This document shows positions 6,876-45,560 of a stretch of 64,000 nt of DNA, piece after piece (the first letter of the stretch is position 1; each line of letters opens with the position of its first letter). Origin of the DNA: an uncultured Ellagibacter sp. (GTDB lineage Bacteria; Actinomycetota; Coriobacteriia; Coriobacteriales; Eggerthellaceae); assembly GCA_934663775.1 (NCBI GenBank), contig CAKUKU010000009.1, forward strand, positions 20,050 through 84,049, in the 5' to 3' direction. A model generated the notes under the pieces. The model was not told the DNA's origin and made no database searches. It saw nothing but the letters and a program-made list of their open reading frames with translations. The translations under genes and the position numbers were made by a program.

Positions 6876-9770
6876 CTACTCGACGACCTTCGCCTCGTAG
6901 CCCGCATCGACGATGGCGTCGACAAGCACCTGGTCGGCGACGTTGGCGGAGAGCTTCGCCGTCGCGCTGTTGGAGTCAAGGTCGACCACGGCCTCTTCCA
7001 CGCCCTCGATGCCCTCGAGCGCCTTCTTCACGTGGGCAACGCAGTGCTGGCACATCATACCTTCGACGGACAGTTTCTTCTCCATGATGATCTCCTTCGG
7101 TTTCGCGGTTTGCGCTTCTTCATTATGACCAGCGGAAACAGACGAACCAACGCTGCCTTCCGCAGAGGTCCCGCCTATCGCGGACGCGCCCGGCTCGCTC
7201 GCAAGCGCAGACCCGGACACAGCCCCGGATTCCCGCGCGGCCGTTGATCCCCCCGATGTCGACGCGGATCTCGCCTCCTGCGCCTCGCCGAGCGAAGCGG
7301 GCTTCCATCCGCGAAGGCGAAGCGCGTTCGACACCACGCACACCGAGCTGCACGACATCGCCGCCGCAGCAATCATGGGGTTCAAGGTTATACCCGCAAA
7401 CGAGAGCGCGCCCGCCGCCACAGGGATGCAGATTACATTGTAGATGAGCGCCCAGAACAAATTCTGCTTGATATTGCGCATGGTCGCGCGCGAAAGCGAG
7501 ATCGCCGCAGGCACATCGGCCAGATCGCTTTTCATGAGCACGATGTCGGCGCTGTCGATAGCGATATCGGTGCCCGCGCCAATCGCGATGCCGACATCGG
7601 CGCGCGCGAGGGCGGGAGCATCGTTCACGCCGTCGCCCACCATGGCAACTGTCCCTTGTTTCTGCAGGTCGCGAATAACTTCCTCCTTGCCTTGCGGCAA
7701 CACATCGGCGATGACATCGTCGGTGCCGACGCGCTTCTGGATAGCGTGCGCCGTGCGCTCGTTGTCACCTGTGAGCATGACGGTGCGGATGCCCATTCGG
7801 GAAAGCTCGGCGAGCGCCGCAGCGCTTCGGGGCTTGGGCTCGTCGGCCAGCGCGATAAGGCCTGCGAGCGCGCCATCCACTGCGAAGAAGAGCACCGTCT
7901 TGCCCTCGTCGGCAAGGCGCTGCGCCTCTCCTTCCGCCCCTGTAACGTCGATGCAGCCCTCCCCCATGAGCCGCGCGTTACCGGCAAGGCACGCACGCCC
8001 CGCAATCTGACCGCGAAGTCCGCCGCCAGGGACTTGCTCGAAGGCCTCGACCTCCTCGGCTGCGACGCCGCCCGCCTCGGCGTATGCCACGATAGCCTGG
8101 GCCAACGGGTGCTCGGAGCGCTTCTCGAGGGAGTACGCAAGGGAAAGGAAAGCGGCTGCTTGAGCGTCAACCCGGGAGGCTTGGATAGCTTCGGTGGCAC
8201 CCAGTCGCTCGGCAGTCCTGACTCGCACGAACAGTCCACTGGACTGTTCGGCTCGTGCGGAACTCGCTTTGTGGGCGCCGCCGAAGCCATCTGCCAAGCC
8301 CGGGGCTCCAGCGACGCGACCCGCGGCGTCCGAAGCGAGCGCCGAGGCTCCTTCAGCCACCAGCACCTCGCACACCTCGGGCGCGCCCTTCGTGATGGTC
8401 CCCGTCTTGTCGAGCACGGCCGTCTTCACATCGTGCGCGGTCTGCAGCGCCTCGGCCGACTTCACGAGAATGCCGTTCGCGGCGCCGCGTCCCGTCCCCA
8501 CCATAATGGCGGTCGGAGTGGCGAGGCCCAACGCGCAGGGGCATGAGATGACGAGCACGCTGATCGCGTGGGAAAGAGCGGTCGCCACGCCCGCACCAAC
8601 GAACATCCAGATGACGAATGTGAGAAGCGCAATCGCGATGACCACGGGCACGAACACGCCCGAGATTTTGTCGGCGAGCTTTTCGATAGGGGCCTTAGAG
8701 CTTGTTGCCTCATCGACCATGCGCACGATCCCTGCGAGCACGGTGTCGGCGCCCACGCGCTCGGCGCGCATGGCAAACCATCCCGTGCGGTTCACCGTCG
8801 CACCCGTAACCGCAGCTCCCACGTCCTTTTCCACCGGCACGCTCTCGCCCGTGATGACGGACTCATCGACCGTGCCCGCGCCTTCGATCACCACGCCGTC
8901 GACAGGCACGCCCGCACCTGCGCGAACGATGAGGATATCTCCCGGGCGCACCTGCTCGGCGGGGACCTCTTCCTCAACGCCATCGGCGTTGCGGCGGATC
9001 GCCGTCTTAGGCGACAGGTCCATGAGCTGCGCAATCGCGTCGGTGGTCTTCCCCTTCGCGCGCGCCTCGAAGTACTTGCCGAGCGTGATCAGCGTGAGGA
9101 TCATCGCCGCCGACTCGAAGTACAAATCCATCGCCGCCATGTGCGCGAAATCGATGTCGCCGTGGCCCATCCCCCAACCGATGCGGTAAATCGCGACGAT
9201 GCCGTAGACCGTCGACGCCGTCGAGCCGAGCGCGATGAGCGAGTCCATGTTCGGCGAGCCGTGGAAGAGCGTCTTGAAGCCCACGCGGAAGAACTTGAAG
9301 TTCACGAAGATCACGGGCAGCAAGAGTAGGAACTGGGTAAACGCGAACGTGAGCATGTTCTCATGGCCCAGGAAGAACTCGGGCAGTGGCCATCCGAACA
9401 TGTGCCCCATGGACAAATAGAACAATGGGATGGTGAACACGAACGACACGATGAGCCGCATGCGCACGTGTGCCGCCTCCTTTGCAGCGGCGTTTTCCCT
9501 TGCGACGGCCGCAGGGGCAGGACCGCTCGGGGCACCCGCGGCTGCGGAGGCCTTGACTCGGGGCACGGCACTGTAGCCTGCCTTCTCTACTGCCGCGCTG
9601 ATCGCGGCGAGCGTGGCGGGATCGCCGTCGTATTCCACCTCCATCGAGTTCTTCAGCAGGTTCACCACAGCGTGCTCGACGCCAGCGACGCCCGAGGTTG
9701 TCTTCTCGACGCGAGCGGAGCAGGCGGCGCACGTCATGCCCGAAACCTCGAAGGTTTGCTTTTGCGTCAT
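6876..9770 (-). CDS. copA: Cu(I)-exporting P1B-type ATPase CopA with C-terminal CopZ-like fusion
   Basis: A 964-residue copper exporter, longer than the usual 750-830. Order: N-terminal heavy-metal domain with GMTCAAC (Cys14, Cys17); membrane helices; TGES actuator; CPC in the ion-path helix; DKTGT phosphorylation site; HP motif (SEHPLAQ); GDGVND; last helices; a Ser/Gly/Ala-rich linker of about 75 residues; then a second heavy-metal domain at 896-964 with GMMCQHC (Cys907, Cys910). The N-domain carries an unusual Ala/Ser-rich stretch of about 60 residues near 475-535 that contains a palindromic repeat. It lies 3 bases after csoR, so CsoR surely controls it. Confidence 0.95.
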   Translation of the reverse strand: MTQKQTFEVSGMTCAACSARVEKTTSGVAGVEHAVVNLLKNSMEVEYDGDPATLAAISAAVEKAGYSAVPRVKASAAAGAPSGPAPAAVARENAAAKEAAHVRMRLIVSFVFTIPLFYLSMGHMFGWPLPEFFLGHENMLTFAFTQFLLLLPVIFVNFKFFRVGFKTLFHGSPNMDSLIALGSTASTVYGIVAIYRIGWGMGHGDIDFAHMAAMDLYFESAAMILTLITLGKYFEARAKGKTTDAIAQLMDLSPKTAIRRNADGVEEEVPAEQVRPGDILIVRAGAGVPVDGVVIEGAGTVDESVITGESVPVEKDVGAAVTGATVNRTGWFAMRAERVGADTVLAGIVRMVDEATSSKAPIEKLADKISGVFVPVVIAIALLTFVIWMFVGAGVATALSHAISVLVISCPCALGLATPTAIMVGTGRGAANGILVKSAEALQTAHDVKTAVLDKTGTITKGAPEVCEVLVAEGASALASDAAGRVAGAPGLADGFGGAHKASSARAEQSSGLFVRVRTAERLGATEAIQASRVDAQAAAFLSLAYSLEKRSEHPLAQAIVAYAEAGGVAAEEVEAFEQVPGGGLRGQIAGRACLAGNARLMGEGCIDVTGAEGEAQRLADEGKTVLFFAVDGALAGLIALADEPKPRSAAALAELSRMGIRTVMLTGDNERTAHAIQKRVGTDDVIADVLPQGKEEVIRDLQKQGTVAMVGDGVNDAPALARADVGIAIGAGTDIAIDSADIVLMKSDLADVPAAISLSRATMRNIKQNLFWALIYNVICIPVAAGALSFAGITLNPMIAAAAMSCSSVCVVSNALRLRGWKPASLGEAQEARSASTSGGSTAARESGAVSGSALASEPGASAIGGTSAEGSVGSSVSAGHNEEAQTAKPKEIIMEKKLSVEGMMCQHCVAHVKKALEGIEGVEEAVVDLDSNSATAKLSANVADQVLVDAIVDAGYEAKVVE
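7083..7097 (-). promoter_or_regulatory. Internal ribosome binding site and ATG inside copA, before the CopZ-like domain
   Basis: On the coding strand AAGGAG is followed by six bases and then ATG (start at 7085), in frame with copA. Initiation here would give a separate 69-residue protein starting MEKKLSVEGMMCQHC, which is exactly the size and layout of a CopZ copper chaperone. The site may be a relic of a former free copZ gene fused to copA, or a working internal start giving both products. Confidence 0.6.
8224..8268. repeat. Palindromic repeat inside copA, related to the rnr repeats
   Basis: A palindrome with arms GAACAGTCC / GGACTGTTC around ACT lies at 8229-8249, followed by TCGTGCGGAACT. 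Over 36 bases it matches the complement of the rnr element at 32137-32214 with 5 mismatches. It is translated in frame within the nucleotide-binding domain of CopA (SSARAEQSSGLFVRVRTAER region), where orthologues normally have a short loop. Confidence 0.7.
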
Positions 9771-30992: not shown

Positions 30993-33266
30993 CTACCGTC
31001 TTGAGCCCTGCGCAAGCCGCAAGTCGATTTGGGGAACACGGGGATCGACCGCGAAGAGGACCACGGCTATGCGCTGCCCGAGCCGATAGCGCGCGCCCGT
31101 TTCCTCGCCCGTGAGCGTATAGCGCGCCGCGTCAAAGCTGAAATAGTCGTCGCCAAGGGTGCGAACAGGGATGAAGCCCTCCGCCGTGTTCTCAAGCCGC
31201 GCGTACAGGCCGCCCTGCGACACGCCTGACACGATGGCGGAAAACGATTGCCCCACGAACTGCTGCAGATATTCAGCCAGCTTGAGTTCCTCAGATTCGC
31301 GCTGTGCATCGTCCGCCTCGCGCTCCATTCCCGACGAATGCTCGCAGATCCAGCCGAGGTTCGTCGTCATCTGGTCGAACTTCTCGGGGCGCCCAAAGAG
31401 CTCGGCTTTCAGCATGCGATGCACCATAAGGTCAGGGTATCTCCTGATGGGGCTTGTGAAGTGGCAGTACGTCGCACTCGCAAGGCCATAGTGGCCGCAG
31501 TTCTTCTCGCGATAGACCGCGCGCTTCATCGAACGAAGCACGAGTGACGAGACGAGCTCGCCCTCGGCGCGGCCACGCGATGCCGAGACCGCCGCCTGAA
31601 GAGCGCGCTGATCACCCGTGAAAAAGCCCACGGGATCGACCCTCTCGAACCAGGGGAACTCTTCGAAGATGGGCACGAGCTGCGCAAGCCCCTCCAGGTC
31701 GGGCGCCTCGTGCACGCGGTAGGCGCAAGGGAACTTCGCACGGGAAAGATGCTCGGCGACGACCTCGTTTGCCCAGATCATCATCTCCTCGACAAGCGAC
31801 GTCGCAGCATTCTTCCGACGAAGCTCCACGCCCTGCGGCTTTCCCGCCTCATCGAGCTTGACGCGCGCCTCGGGCTGGTCGAAGTCGATGCCGCCCTTGC
31901 GTTCGCGCTGCGCATGCCGAAGCGAGGCGAAGCGCGACAGCTGGCGAAGACGCCTTCGAAGGGAAGTCTCCCGTTGTCCCCGAGAATGCGGGGCATACTC
32001 CGTGCTCAAACAGTCCTCGCTGCGCTGCGGAACTGCGCGCGGAACACGCCCCGCATTCTCAGAGATTACTGCTGGCTCAAACTCGCTCGCATTATCGCAA
32101 CGGCTTCCCTGAGGCCCCTGAGGGCGTGGGGTATGCTCCGCGCGCAGTTCCGCACGACGAGAACAGCCCAGTGGGCTGTTCTCCAAAGCAGGACTGTCTG
32201 AGCACGGAGTATGCTTCCCGCCCTCCCCAGCTGCAGCCTCGTCTTCACCTTCCCCTTCGAGCATTTCGAGCGCCTCGCCGTAAGTCAGGCGCGCGTTCGA
32301 GCAGATGAGGGCAGGGTAAATCTCATAGCGCACAAGTTGCGCCCACTCGTCGACATACAAATCGACTGTCATGGAGCGGCGCTGCTCGCCTGGGGCGAGC
32401 GAGCACAGCCCGCACGAAAGCTCCTCGGGAATCATTGGGATCACCCGATCGACCAGATACACGCTCGTGGCACGTCGCCGCGCCGCCAGATCGAGCGCGC
32501 TCCCCCATTCCACGTAATGCGAGACGTCGGCGATGTGCACGCCGATGCGCCAGAGCGAACGGCCCTGGTCTTCCACTTGCTCGATGGAGAGCGCGTCGTC
32601 GAAATCCCGCGCATCATCAGGGTCGATGGTGAATACGAAGCGGTCGCGCAGATCGCGATAGCCCGATGCGAGCGCACCCACCTCGTCGACCGAGGCAGCG
32701 CACGCCTCCGCGAGCGCGGCGTCGGAGAACGCGGTTTCGAACTTATGGCGGGCAACGACAGCGTCGACCCCCTCGTCGAGGCCATCGACATGTTCGAGAA
32801 CTTCCTCAACATGTCCCGTTGCCGCGGAATTGCGGGAGGGGAACTGCGCAATGCGAACGCGAACGATCGCGCCGTCTTCCACATCGGGCGCTTCGGAGAG
32901 CGGGGTGAAGATGTCGTAGGGGATGTGCGGGTCGAGCGGCACGACGACGCCGAACGGCTCGGCCGCCTCGAACCGACCGACTACGACCTCGTGCGCGCGC
33001 TCTATCACCGCGGCGACGCGTGCGGCACGCTTATGCCCGTAGCGACCGCCGCCGGAACCTTCTCGCGAGCGACCCTTCGCGGCATTCGCGGGCAGCGGGG
33101 CAACCTCGACCAGATCGCCATCGAACGCGCCGCCGAGCTTGGAGCGGGGCACGAAGAACTCGCCTTCGGACGTGCGCACGAAGCCGTAGCCTTCGGGATT
33201 CACCTGCATGATGCCACACGGGCGAGAGCGGGCGGTGCGCCGCGTGTGGTTCTTCGAACGGGGCAT
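30993..33266 (-). CDS. rnr: Ribonuclease R / RNB-family exoribonuclease with a large in-frame insertion
   Basis: A 757-residue 3'-5' exoribonuclease. An N-terminal cold-shock domain is followed by the RNB catalytic core (TIDPDDARDFDDALS supplies the metal-binding aspartates; HYVEWGSALDLAARRRATSVYL; HFTSPIRRYPDLMVHR) and a C-terminal S1 domain. Between YGEALEMLEG and the usual RKGGIDFD there are about 130 residues of Ser/Arg/Pro-rich sequence where family members have about 30. That segment is encoded by two inverted copies of a palindromic repeat, yet the frame stays open. The stop of ctpA lies 8 bases upstream of the start, so it is cotranscribed with ftsEX-ctpA. Confidence 0.92.
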   Translation of the reverse strand: MPRSKNHTRRTARSRPCGIMQVNPEGYGFVRTSEGEFFVPRSKLGGAFDGDLVEVAPLPANAAKGRSREGSGGGRYGHKRAARVAAVIERAHEVVVGRFEAAEPFGVVVPLDPHIPYDIFTPLSEAPDVEDGAIVRVRIAQFPSRNSAATGHVEEVLEHVDGLDEGVDAVVARHKFETAFSDAALAEACAASVDEVGALASGYRDLRDRFVFTIDPDDARDFDDALSIEQVEDQGRSLWRIGVHIADVSHYVEWGSALDLAARRRATSVYLVDRVIPMIPEELSCGLCSLAPGEQRRSMTVDLYVDEWAQLVRYEIYPALICSNARLTYGEALEMLEGEGEDEAAAGEGGKHTPCSDSPALENSPLGCSRRAELRAEHTPRPQGPQGSRCDNASEFEPAVISENAGRVPRAVPQRSEDCLSTEYAPHSRGQRETSLRRRLRQLSRFASLRHAQRERKGGIDFDQPEARVKLDEAGKPQGVELRRKNAATSLVEEMMIWANEVVAEHLSRAKFPCAYRVHEAPDLEGLAQLVPIFEEFPWFERVDPVGFFTGDQRALQAAVSASRGRAEGELVSSLVLRSMKRAVYREKNCGHYGLASATYCHFTSPIRRYPDLMVHRMLKAELFGRPEKFDQMTTNLGWICEHSSGMEREADDAQRESEELKLAEYLQQFVGQSFSAIVSGVSQGGLYARLENTAEGFIPVRTLGDDYFSFDAARYTLTGEETGARYRLGQRIAVVLFAVDPRVPQIDLRLAQGSRR
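31982..32060. repeat. Palindromic element copy 1 inside rnr
   Basis: It is bounded by a 13-bp perfect inverted repeat (GAGAATGCGGGGC and complement). It contains GCATACTCCGTGCTCAAAC followed by AGTCCT and, at 32027-32043, GCGGAACTGCGCGCGGA. Both blocks reappear inverted in copy 2. It lacks the 25-bp palindromic core found in copy 2. Confidence 0.75.
32137..32214. repeat. Palindromic element copy 2 inside rnr (inverted relative to copy 1)
   Basis: It contains TCCGCGCGCAGTTCCGC (exact complement of a block in copy 1), the palindrome GAGAACAGCCC-AGT-GGGCTGTTCTC at 32159-32183, and a 25-base tail at 32190-32214 that is the complement of copy 1 with one mismatch. A third relative lies in copA. 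Confidence 0.75.
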
Positions 33267-45431: not shown

Positions 45432-45560
45432 TGCCATTCACGCACGAATGGCACGGTGTAACTTGCTTCGAATATACACGAATGGCACGGTCAGCATGTG
45501 CAATATTATACACGAATGGCACGGTGTAACTTGCTTCGAATATACACGAATGGCACGGTT
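45432..45560. repeat. Four tandem 34-bp repeats plus an inverted half-site upstream of the DUF4143 ATPase gene
   Basis: CACGAATGGCACGGT begins at 45443, 45477, 45511 and 45545, an exact 34-base period. Copies 1 and 3 are the same over the whole unit (…GTAACTTGCTTCGAATATA), copy 2 differs in its second half. An inverted copy TGCCATTC at 45432-45439 makes a hairpin with the first. On the gene's strand each unit reads CCGTGCCATTCGTGTATA. It fits an iterated operator or iteron array. Confidence 0.8.

Follow-up and report, generated by a model that had tools for sequence, protein, structure and literature searches.

Modular palindromic hairpins in frame in Ellagibacter genes and their relatives across Eggerthellaceae

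Since the Rickettsia reports it has, to our knowledge, been an open question by what route genes acquire palindromic elements without loss of frame. MITEs are small non-autonomous repeats. They sometimes yield in-frame fusions, and the palindromic repeats of about 150 bp called RPEs lie in frame in unrelated genes, as PMC10969869 describes (citing Ogata 2000, 2002). REPs are short hairpins that lie mostly downstream of genes and, in several species, partly inside ORFs (PMC3733652). Template switching between inverted repeats is described to homogenise arms and invert spacers in yeast coding genes, and to create and maintain stems (PMC8604942 and PMC8794818, respectively).

The element described here resembles RPEs in being in frame in 10 unrelated genes of the type-strain genome of Ellagibacter isourolithinifaciens (G001), eight of which have recognisable protein on both sides. 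The host is unrelated, however, and the resemblance is one of described features; the Ellagibacter heads invert between species, have exchangeable cores and locus-specific arms, and form an intergenic majority in two relatives (genomes G057 and G081). Like REPs, the element is a dispersed short imperfect palindrome, of which G001 has at least 28 copies and whose coreless form was found in 30 of 138 Eggerthellaceae genomes, but it has no fixed GTAG/CGTC tag, its stems are longer and locus-specific, and no Y1 match was found in G001. Small size and in-frame gene insertions are shared with MITEs, whereas constant terminal repeats are lacking outside G081 and a clean 144-nt indel shows no target duplication. 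Spacer inversion and, in single cases, arm homogenisation recall template-switch mutations, whose published cases (PMC8604942, PMC8794818) concern ordinary sequence, whereas the repeats here are dispersed and lie in housekeeping genes. In-frame palindromes are already known from Rickettsia RPEs and from REPs in ORFs; invertible, core-swapping heads on locus-specific arms are what is added here. A literature search reaching a minority of subscription papers gave no description of such repeats in the Eggerthellaceae/Coriobacteriia group, and Eggerthella, Coriobacter and Slackia are not mentioned in the main text of PMC3733652.

In-frame hairpins in the RNase R and copA genes

The window, that is, the whole stretch of 64,000 nucleotides analysed here, is 89.7% identical to the E. 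isourolithinifaciens type strain over 20.7 kb (L001) and 86.5% identical to a MAG of the same genus over 5.0 kb (L006). Judged by these identities, it is from an Ellagibacter lineage near, yet distinct from, the type strain and the MAG. The features of its RNase R gene are as follows.

30993..33266, minus strand: RNase R gene (rnr), 757 aa, an intact ORF with Pfam RNB, CSD2, OB_RNB and S1 and with two elements in frame
31982..32060, minus strand: element copy 1, coreless form, from inverted repeat and fold; head on the minus strand, arms 31982-31994 and 32048-32060
32011..32034, minus strand: conserved 24-nt coreless head of copy 1 with GCA triloop, from motif match
32061..32119, no strand: spacer separating the two rnr hairpins, module C of the RNase R alleles, from the protein module map
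32120..32225, plus strand: element copy 2, core-bearing form, from inverted repeat, head typing and fold
32159..32183, plus strand: palindromic core of copy 2, GAGAACAGCCCAGTGGGCTGTTCTC, from inverted repeat and core search
31983..32252, minus strand: RNase R codons 339-428, predicted disordered loop (AlphaFold2 pLDDT below 50)

Inverted-repeat analysis of the window showed that copies 1 and 2 are imperfect palindromes in opposite orientation. An earlier note on this DNA had described such a pair inside RNase R, ending at 32214; the pair is present and reaches 32225. The 25-base arms are identical at 24 of 25 positions (31993-32017 versus 32190-32214), and a second arm pair of 37 bases is 81% complementary, with at least 17 bases in a row pairing exactly, in line with the two shared blocks noted before. 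The inverted arrangement stands, but not the spacing of about 77 bases given with it, as 59 bases separate the facing edges of the hairpins. At up to three mismatches, the 25-mer arm occurs in the window only at the two rnr sites (0 in shuffles); at the same tolerance the 17-mer alone was not significant, with 45 of 100 shuffles reaching two hits. The core of copy 2 is absent from copy 1 in the window, as had been stated, and the type strain has a different core, GAACGTGCCCTCTGGCACGTTC, at the site where copy 1 of the window is coreless. Both rnr elements of the type strain are oriented as in the window.

A search of the window with the core GAACAGCCCAGTGGGCTGTTC returned one further site, 8229-8249, with two to three mismatches (0 in shuffles), and BLAST of the rnr pair against the window recovered the same copy at 8213-8264, inside a copA-type gene.

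6876..9770, minus strand: copA-type P-ATPase gene with a third in-frame element; Pfam E1-E2_ATPase, Hydrolase 448-725 and HMA
8185..8290, minus strand: third element copy, whose inner arms are the alternative pair CACAAAGCGAGTTCC / GGACTGCCGAGCGACTG; core 8229-8249, outer limits by eye

Folded as single-stranded DNA, rnr copies 1 (z -5.2) and 2 (z -4.0) both beat 200 of 200 dinucleotide shuffles. The copies at L221 and L138 also beat all 200 shuffles and that at L222 beat 199 of 200; the copA copy folds more weakly (z -1.8, 8 of 200 shuffles equally good).

AlphaFold2 (30 sequences) gave pLDDT below 50 for RNase R residues 339-428 and above 70 for most of the rest, placing the predicted loop between helices 329-337 and 429-457. 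The loop comprises about 97 residues (342-438) versus 11 in B. subtilis RNase R (8cdu), and about 102 versus about 31 in Gordonibacter when counted by eye. The earlier note had proposed an in-frame replacement of about 30 residues by about 130; the ORF is indeed intact, but these loop lengths show that 130 is too high. The catalytic fold is expected to be unaffected by the insert, and in intragenic copies the head is probably translated into a stretch of a disordered loop at the protein surface.

Anatomy and distribution of the hairpin family

The element consists of an asymmetric hairpin head that is conserved and ends in either a GNA triloop or an exchangeable palindromic core. This head stands on complementary arms that differ from locus to locus. 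The head is bulged and 24-60 nt long; its coreless form is AGTTCCGCAGCGNAGCGAGGACTG, the middle of which is replaced by GAACAGYCCAGTGGRCTGTTC, GAACGTGCCCTCTGGCACGTTC or close variants in core-bearing copies. The coreless tip is GC-GNA-GC, and d(GCGNAGC) is an unusually stable DNA mini-hairpin. With the three loop bases left free in the search, the triloops of 75 distinct coreless copies were GAA (39), GCA (33), AAA (2) and GTA (1), and one GGA was found in G024. A few heads in G068 and G070 are tipped AGCYCTGC instead of GC-GNA-GC, which would lengthen the stem. The longest complementary run between arms averages 12.1 within a locus versus 5.6 between loci (74 copies), and the flanking arms are for the most part locus-specific; in G081, however, 19 of the 20 copies inspected have nearly the same inner-left arm.

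The coreless head can be read through in five of its six frames: one register contains a TGA in one orientation, and the other two are free of stops on either strand. Among 271 SPRxAAEL protein segments, which are database proteins rather than independent alleles and were seen as residues rather than codons, x is F in 167, C in 73, Y in 30 and S in 1. These four residues are all the products of TNC, so the second codon position seems variable while the first and third are fixed, opposite to the pattern of protein constraint.

The coreless head is present in 30 of 138 Eggerthellaceae genomes at up to three mismatches, most listed matches being exact (reversed-pattern control 0). The alternative-core pattern was found in 49 of the 138 at up to two mismatches, with the reversed-pattern control at 0 in every row; outside Ellagibacter this is a count of pattern matches, so some of these 49 genomes may instead contain a different hairpin family that shares the core. 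In a class-wide draw at up to two mismatches, 17 of 197 genomes contained the coreless head (control 0), and four of these positives (G274, G278, G282 and G299) are outside the 138-genome set. The suggestion of a modular in-frame palindromic family in Coriobacteriia is therefore supported: besides the copA copy, many others occur in two genomes of the same genus, cores, spacers and orientations differ between copies and alleles, and the family is also spread across Eggerthellaceae, where it is largely intergenic in two relatives.

The type-strain genome holds at least 28 elements, typed as core-bearing or coreless. When genes were called by codon score, with the window as training sequence, 14 of the 28 copies fell inside ORFs, spread over 10 genes. 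The hosts are rnr (2), copA, ksgA/rsmA, folC (2), hisH, a murT-gatD fusion, a tsaB-rimI-tsaD fusion, a gene for a CitMHS-type transporter (2), one for a Cthe_2159 protein (2) and one for an ABC ATPase; the names tsaB, folC and hisH are in part putative. In the first eight of these genes, with 11 of the 14 intragenic copies, the element is flanked by recognisable parts of one protein, whereas the 3 copies in the Cthe_2159 and ABC ATPase genes precede the domain on its N-terminal side, which leaves room for a downstream start. Since a gene-breaking copy would score as intergenic, these intragenic counts cannot measure selection for frame. Intragenic copies place the same head in different registers.

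Strong hairpins on the coding strand raise the alternative that the inserts are untranslated, the hairpin being skipped by the ribosome or cut from the mRNA. We consider this highly improbable, because the 11 G001 copies between protein parts are stop-free in frame, which excision would not need, and because no intact coreless intragenic head was seen in the TGA-containing register.

Intergenic copies near gene ends prevail in the two relatives, comprising 9 of 12 inspected copies in G057 (which has 14 coreless hits) and 20 of 20 in G081 (which has 25), that is, 29 of 32; in G001, 14 of 28 copies are intergenic. Among these 29 intergenic heads, 27 are antisense to the gene with the nearest end (two-sided p ~1.6e-6, from a count by hand under a rule set after the data were seen). 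Most copies in G057 and G081, being at gene ends in one orientation, would probably be transcribed as 3' hairpins. This bias, together with a conserved loop on a variable stem, is also consistent with a conserved functional RNA or protein-binding element acting in 3' end processing or mRNA stability, whose stem need only pair and whose intragenic copies are accidental. Such a role is conceivable but doubtful, because orientation is mixed in Ellagibacter, 108 of the 138 family genomes are without the coreless head, and no Rfam family was matched at gathering score in eight loci or at positions 31800-32400 of the window, all matches being sub-threshold. A known RNA family was rejected on the same Rfam result. 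Intrinsic terminators were likewise rejected, as a five-T run within 50 bases past the stem occurs in just 1 of 32 copies, an intragenic one, a count that also speaks against the functional RNA.

Other repeats were observed nearby. In G081, a second short repeat, GTCATCCTGAGCGMAGCGAAGGATCT-like and with a GNA-type centre, comes after the element at L234, L241, L243, L247 and L249. Another hairpin family, in which GTGCTCGGGGTT stands beside CAACAGTCCACTGGACTGTTG or GAAAAGCCCACTGGGCTTTTC, was seen at L087 (G001 C2:134211 and 134328), L089 and L152, with a common CCASTGG centre and covarying flanks. At 45443-45559 in the window, copies of CACGAATGGCACGGT recur at 34-base spacing, possibly as operator sites.

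Inversion, probable arm rewriting and alleles

Orthologous copies were compared between G001 and G003, a genome from another Ellagibacter species. Of 23 pairs, 16 have the same orientation and 7 the opposite one; five of the 28 G001 copies are omitted from this count, namely the two RNase R copies, for which G003 has no sequence, the L120 copy, whose site is empty in G003, one L145 copy, because of a contig end, and one of the L212 copies, where G003 has just one. L140 at 11993 was counted as same orientation, against the script, because the synteny alignment pairs it with a same-orientation degenerate copy. Five of the inverted copies are in genes (ksgA, murT-gatD, tsaB, hisH and, for one copy, folC), and the other two are intergenic, at L086/L108 and L090/L100. 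The arms at both intergenic sites are unrelated, and these two inversions could be separate insertions. As inversion preserves length, it preserves the frame.

Arms also differ between the species. At L143/L217 the right arm differs by one base and the left arm in a tight cluster, and the G001 version of this cluster extends the pairing with the right arm (no outgroup gives polarity). In tsaB, pairing of the outer right arm is seen in G001 and is absent in G003. Across 17 copy pairs, three of them against the window, 355 arm pairs were comparable after 20 gapped pairs, 3 N pairs and two sites with unrelated arms had been set aside. Of these, 289 were unchanged and 66 had changed. In 7 of the 66 both sides differ and still pair, 24 involve G-T, and pairing is broken from one side in 33 and from both in 2. 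Because this bulk covariation is modest, the argument for homogenisation comes from single cases.

Presence and absence of an element were seen at L120/L210, where a clean 144-nt difference between the species has both arms inside and no target duplication. The KsgA alleles had suggested that the outer arms are native flank; this was rejected, as the 144-nt indel holds both arms and, at L086/L108 and at L090/L100, a single site carries unrelated arms in the two genomes. A separate species difference of nearly 300 nt, between L150 (G003 C44) and L140 (G001 C22), contains an element and has TTGCAACCT direct repeats at its bounds, and AACCTCGCAGGTTGA-like sequences recur beside several elements.

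In database proteins, RNase R relatives have 65-159 residues between fixed anchors (111 of 120 with both anchors), and by eye the same segment has 37 and 51 residues in two other genera. The earlier note had set against the repeat the case of all orthologues carrying the same insert; they have no one common insert. The RNase R modules comprise copy 2 in two versions, the spacers B and C, a copy 1 that is coreless or has either core, and an inverted coreless copy. Module orders scored numbered 22, including artefacts from patterns that miss some modules, and at least 15 remain after missed modules are discounted. KsgA alleles, for which anchors failed in 17 of 120 proteins and 8 of 30 loci, occur in either orientation, differ in their cores and include, in Ellagibacter-like proteins, a tandem double as well as a short allele (ALAKYAPRPLG...); in other genera, other palindromic inserts occupy the same loop. 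FolC alleles carry one to at least three elements, with a tandem duplication in P0242 (anchors failed for 63 of 120 proteins). As protein databases list ORFs, broken alleles are invisible in them.

The ksgA loop is a hot spot, where other genera also carry in-frame palindromes (L253, L263, L264): G057 has an unrelated one (L253), and G009 and G011 have core-bearing relatives of the element in another register. The loop has 14-27 residues in L269-L271 and L273-L279. In other ksgA genes, peptides like VILSGARSAESKDP resemble the translation of a GTCATCCTGAGCGMAGCGAAGGATCT-like repeat.

Heads that are near-invariant across genera, inversions and combinatorial alleles would also be produced by programmed site-specific inversion and cassette exchange, in which the head would be the recognition site of a recombinase that inverts or exchanges it, generating protein diversity. 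This appears quite improbable: the inverted repeats would lie in the arms rather than in the head, the same inversions are expected from template switching, the host genes are housekeeping genes, and no recombinase was identified in a search that covered Y1_Tnp. It is also improbable that the family acts as a natural in-frame diversity generator, whose conserved single-stranded head would be recognised by an enzyme of the host or of a mobile element, inserted, inverted and core-swapped in essential genes with the frame kept, giving many loop architectures per gene.

Dispersal and the proposed mechanism

A search for Y1_Tnp (PF01797) gave 0 matches in G001 and one match each in G003 and G081, and G057 is outside the 71 of 138 family genomes that are positive. 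With no match in element-rich G001, a Y1 transposase was rejected as the obvious mobiliser. A 40-base coreless query matched none of 72,556 plasmid or 50,697 phage records, and the 24-nt head matched nothing in a viral contig collection; transport by phages, plasmids or viral contigs was rejected on these collections. At a fixed offset, the commonest GTAG occurs in 3 and the commonest CGTC in 4 of 74 coreless copies. Constant terminal inverted repeats were not found, the outer arms being locus-specific and near-identical only within G081.

These results bear on the classical REP/MITE explanation, in which the hairpin is a miniature transposon moved by a Y1 transposase (RAYT or IS200/IS605-like) and differences in orientation and arms reflect independent insertions. 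The bulged hairpin, the dispersed copies, their position near gene ends in two relatives and Y1_Tnp in 71 of 138 genomes fit it, and the near-identical arms of 19 of 20 G081 copies suggest recent amplification. We nevertheless find it unlikely, given that both G001 and G057 are rich in elements and neither is among the Y1_Tnp positives, that a fixed GTAG/CGTC is found in at most 4 of 74 copies, and that the clean 144-nt indel shows no target duplication and no phage, plasmid or viral contig matched. New copies may be dispersed by an enzyme that acts on the head in its single-stranded form, which we tentatively consider the likeliest agent.

The explanation that we favour, and regard as probable, is a REP-like hairpin family rewritten in place by template switching plus recombination, with open frames kept by selection. 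The element would be a short, apparently non-coding REP-like hairpin of Eggerthellaceae with the head as its heritable part. Template switching, our preferred agent of change, would act during replication at the hairpin, copying one arm from the other (homogenisation) and inverting the head, and recombination between alleles and sister copies would exchange cores and spacers; together the two processes may give rise to the combinatorial RNase R, KsgA and FolC alleles. In Ellagibacter, where about half of the copies are in ORFs, selection would retain only those that leave the frame open. Mutation alone leaves the near-invariant heads across genera unexplained, which counts against this explanation, as do the modest arm covariation, the 144-nt indel with both arms inside and the absence of a linked transposase.

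In summary, the same sites are visible in both orientations, with several cores, and with and without the element, across strains of a culturable gut genus. Because both states are seen at the same sites, insertion, inversion and arm rewriting are directly observable. Replication errors at hairpins are thus a possible route to new protein loops, and this element family would repeatedly rewrite loops of essential proteins by flipping in place and reshuffling between strains.
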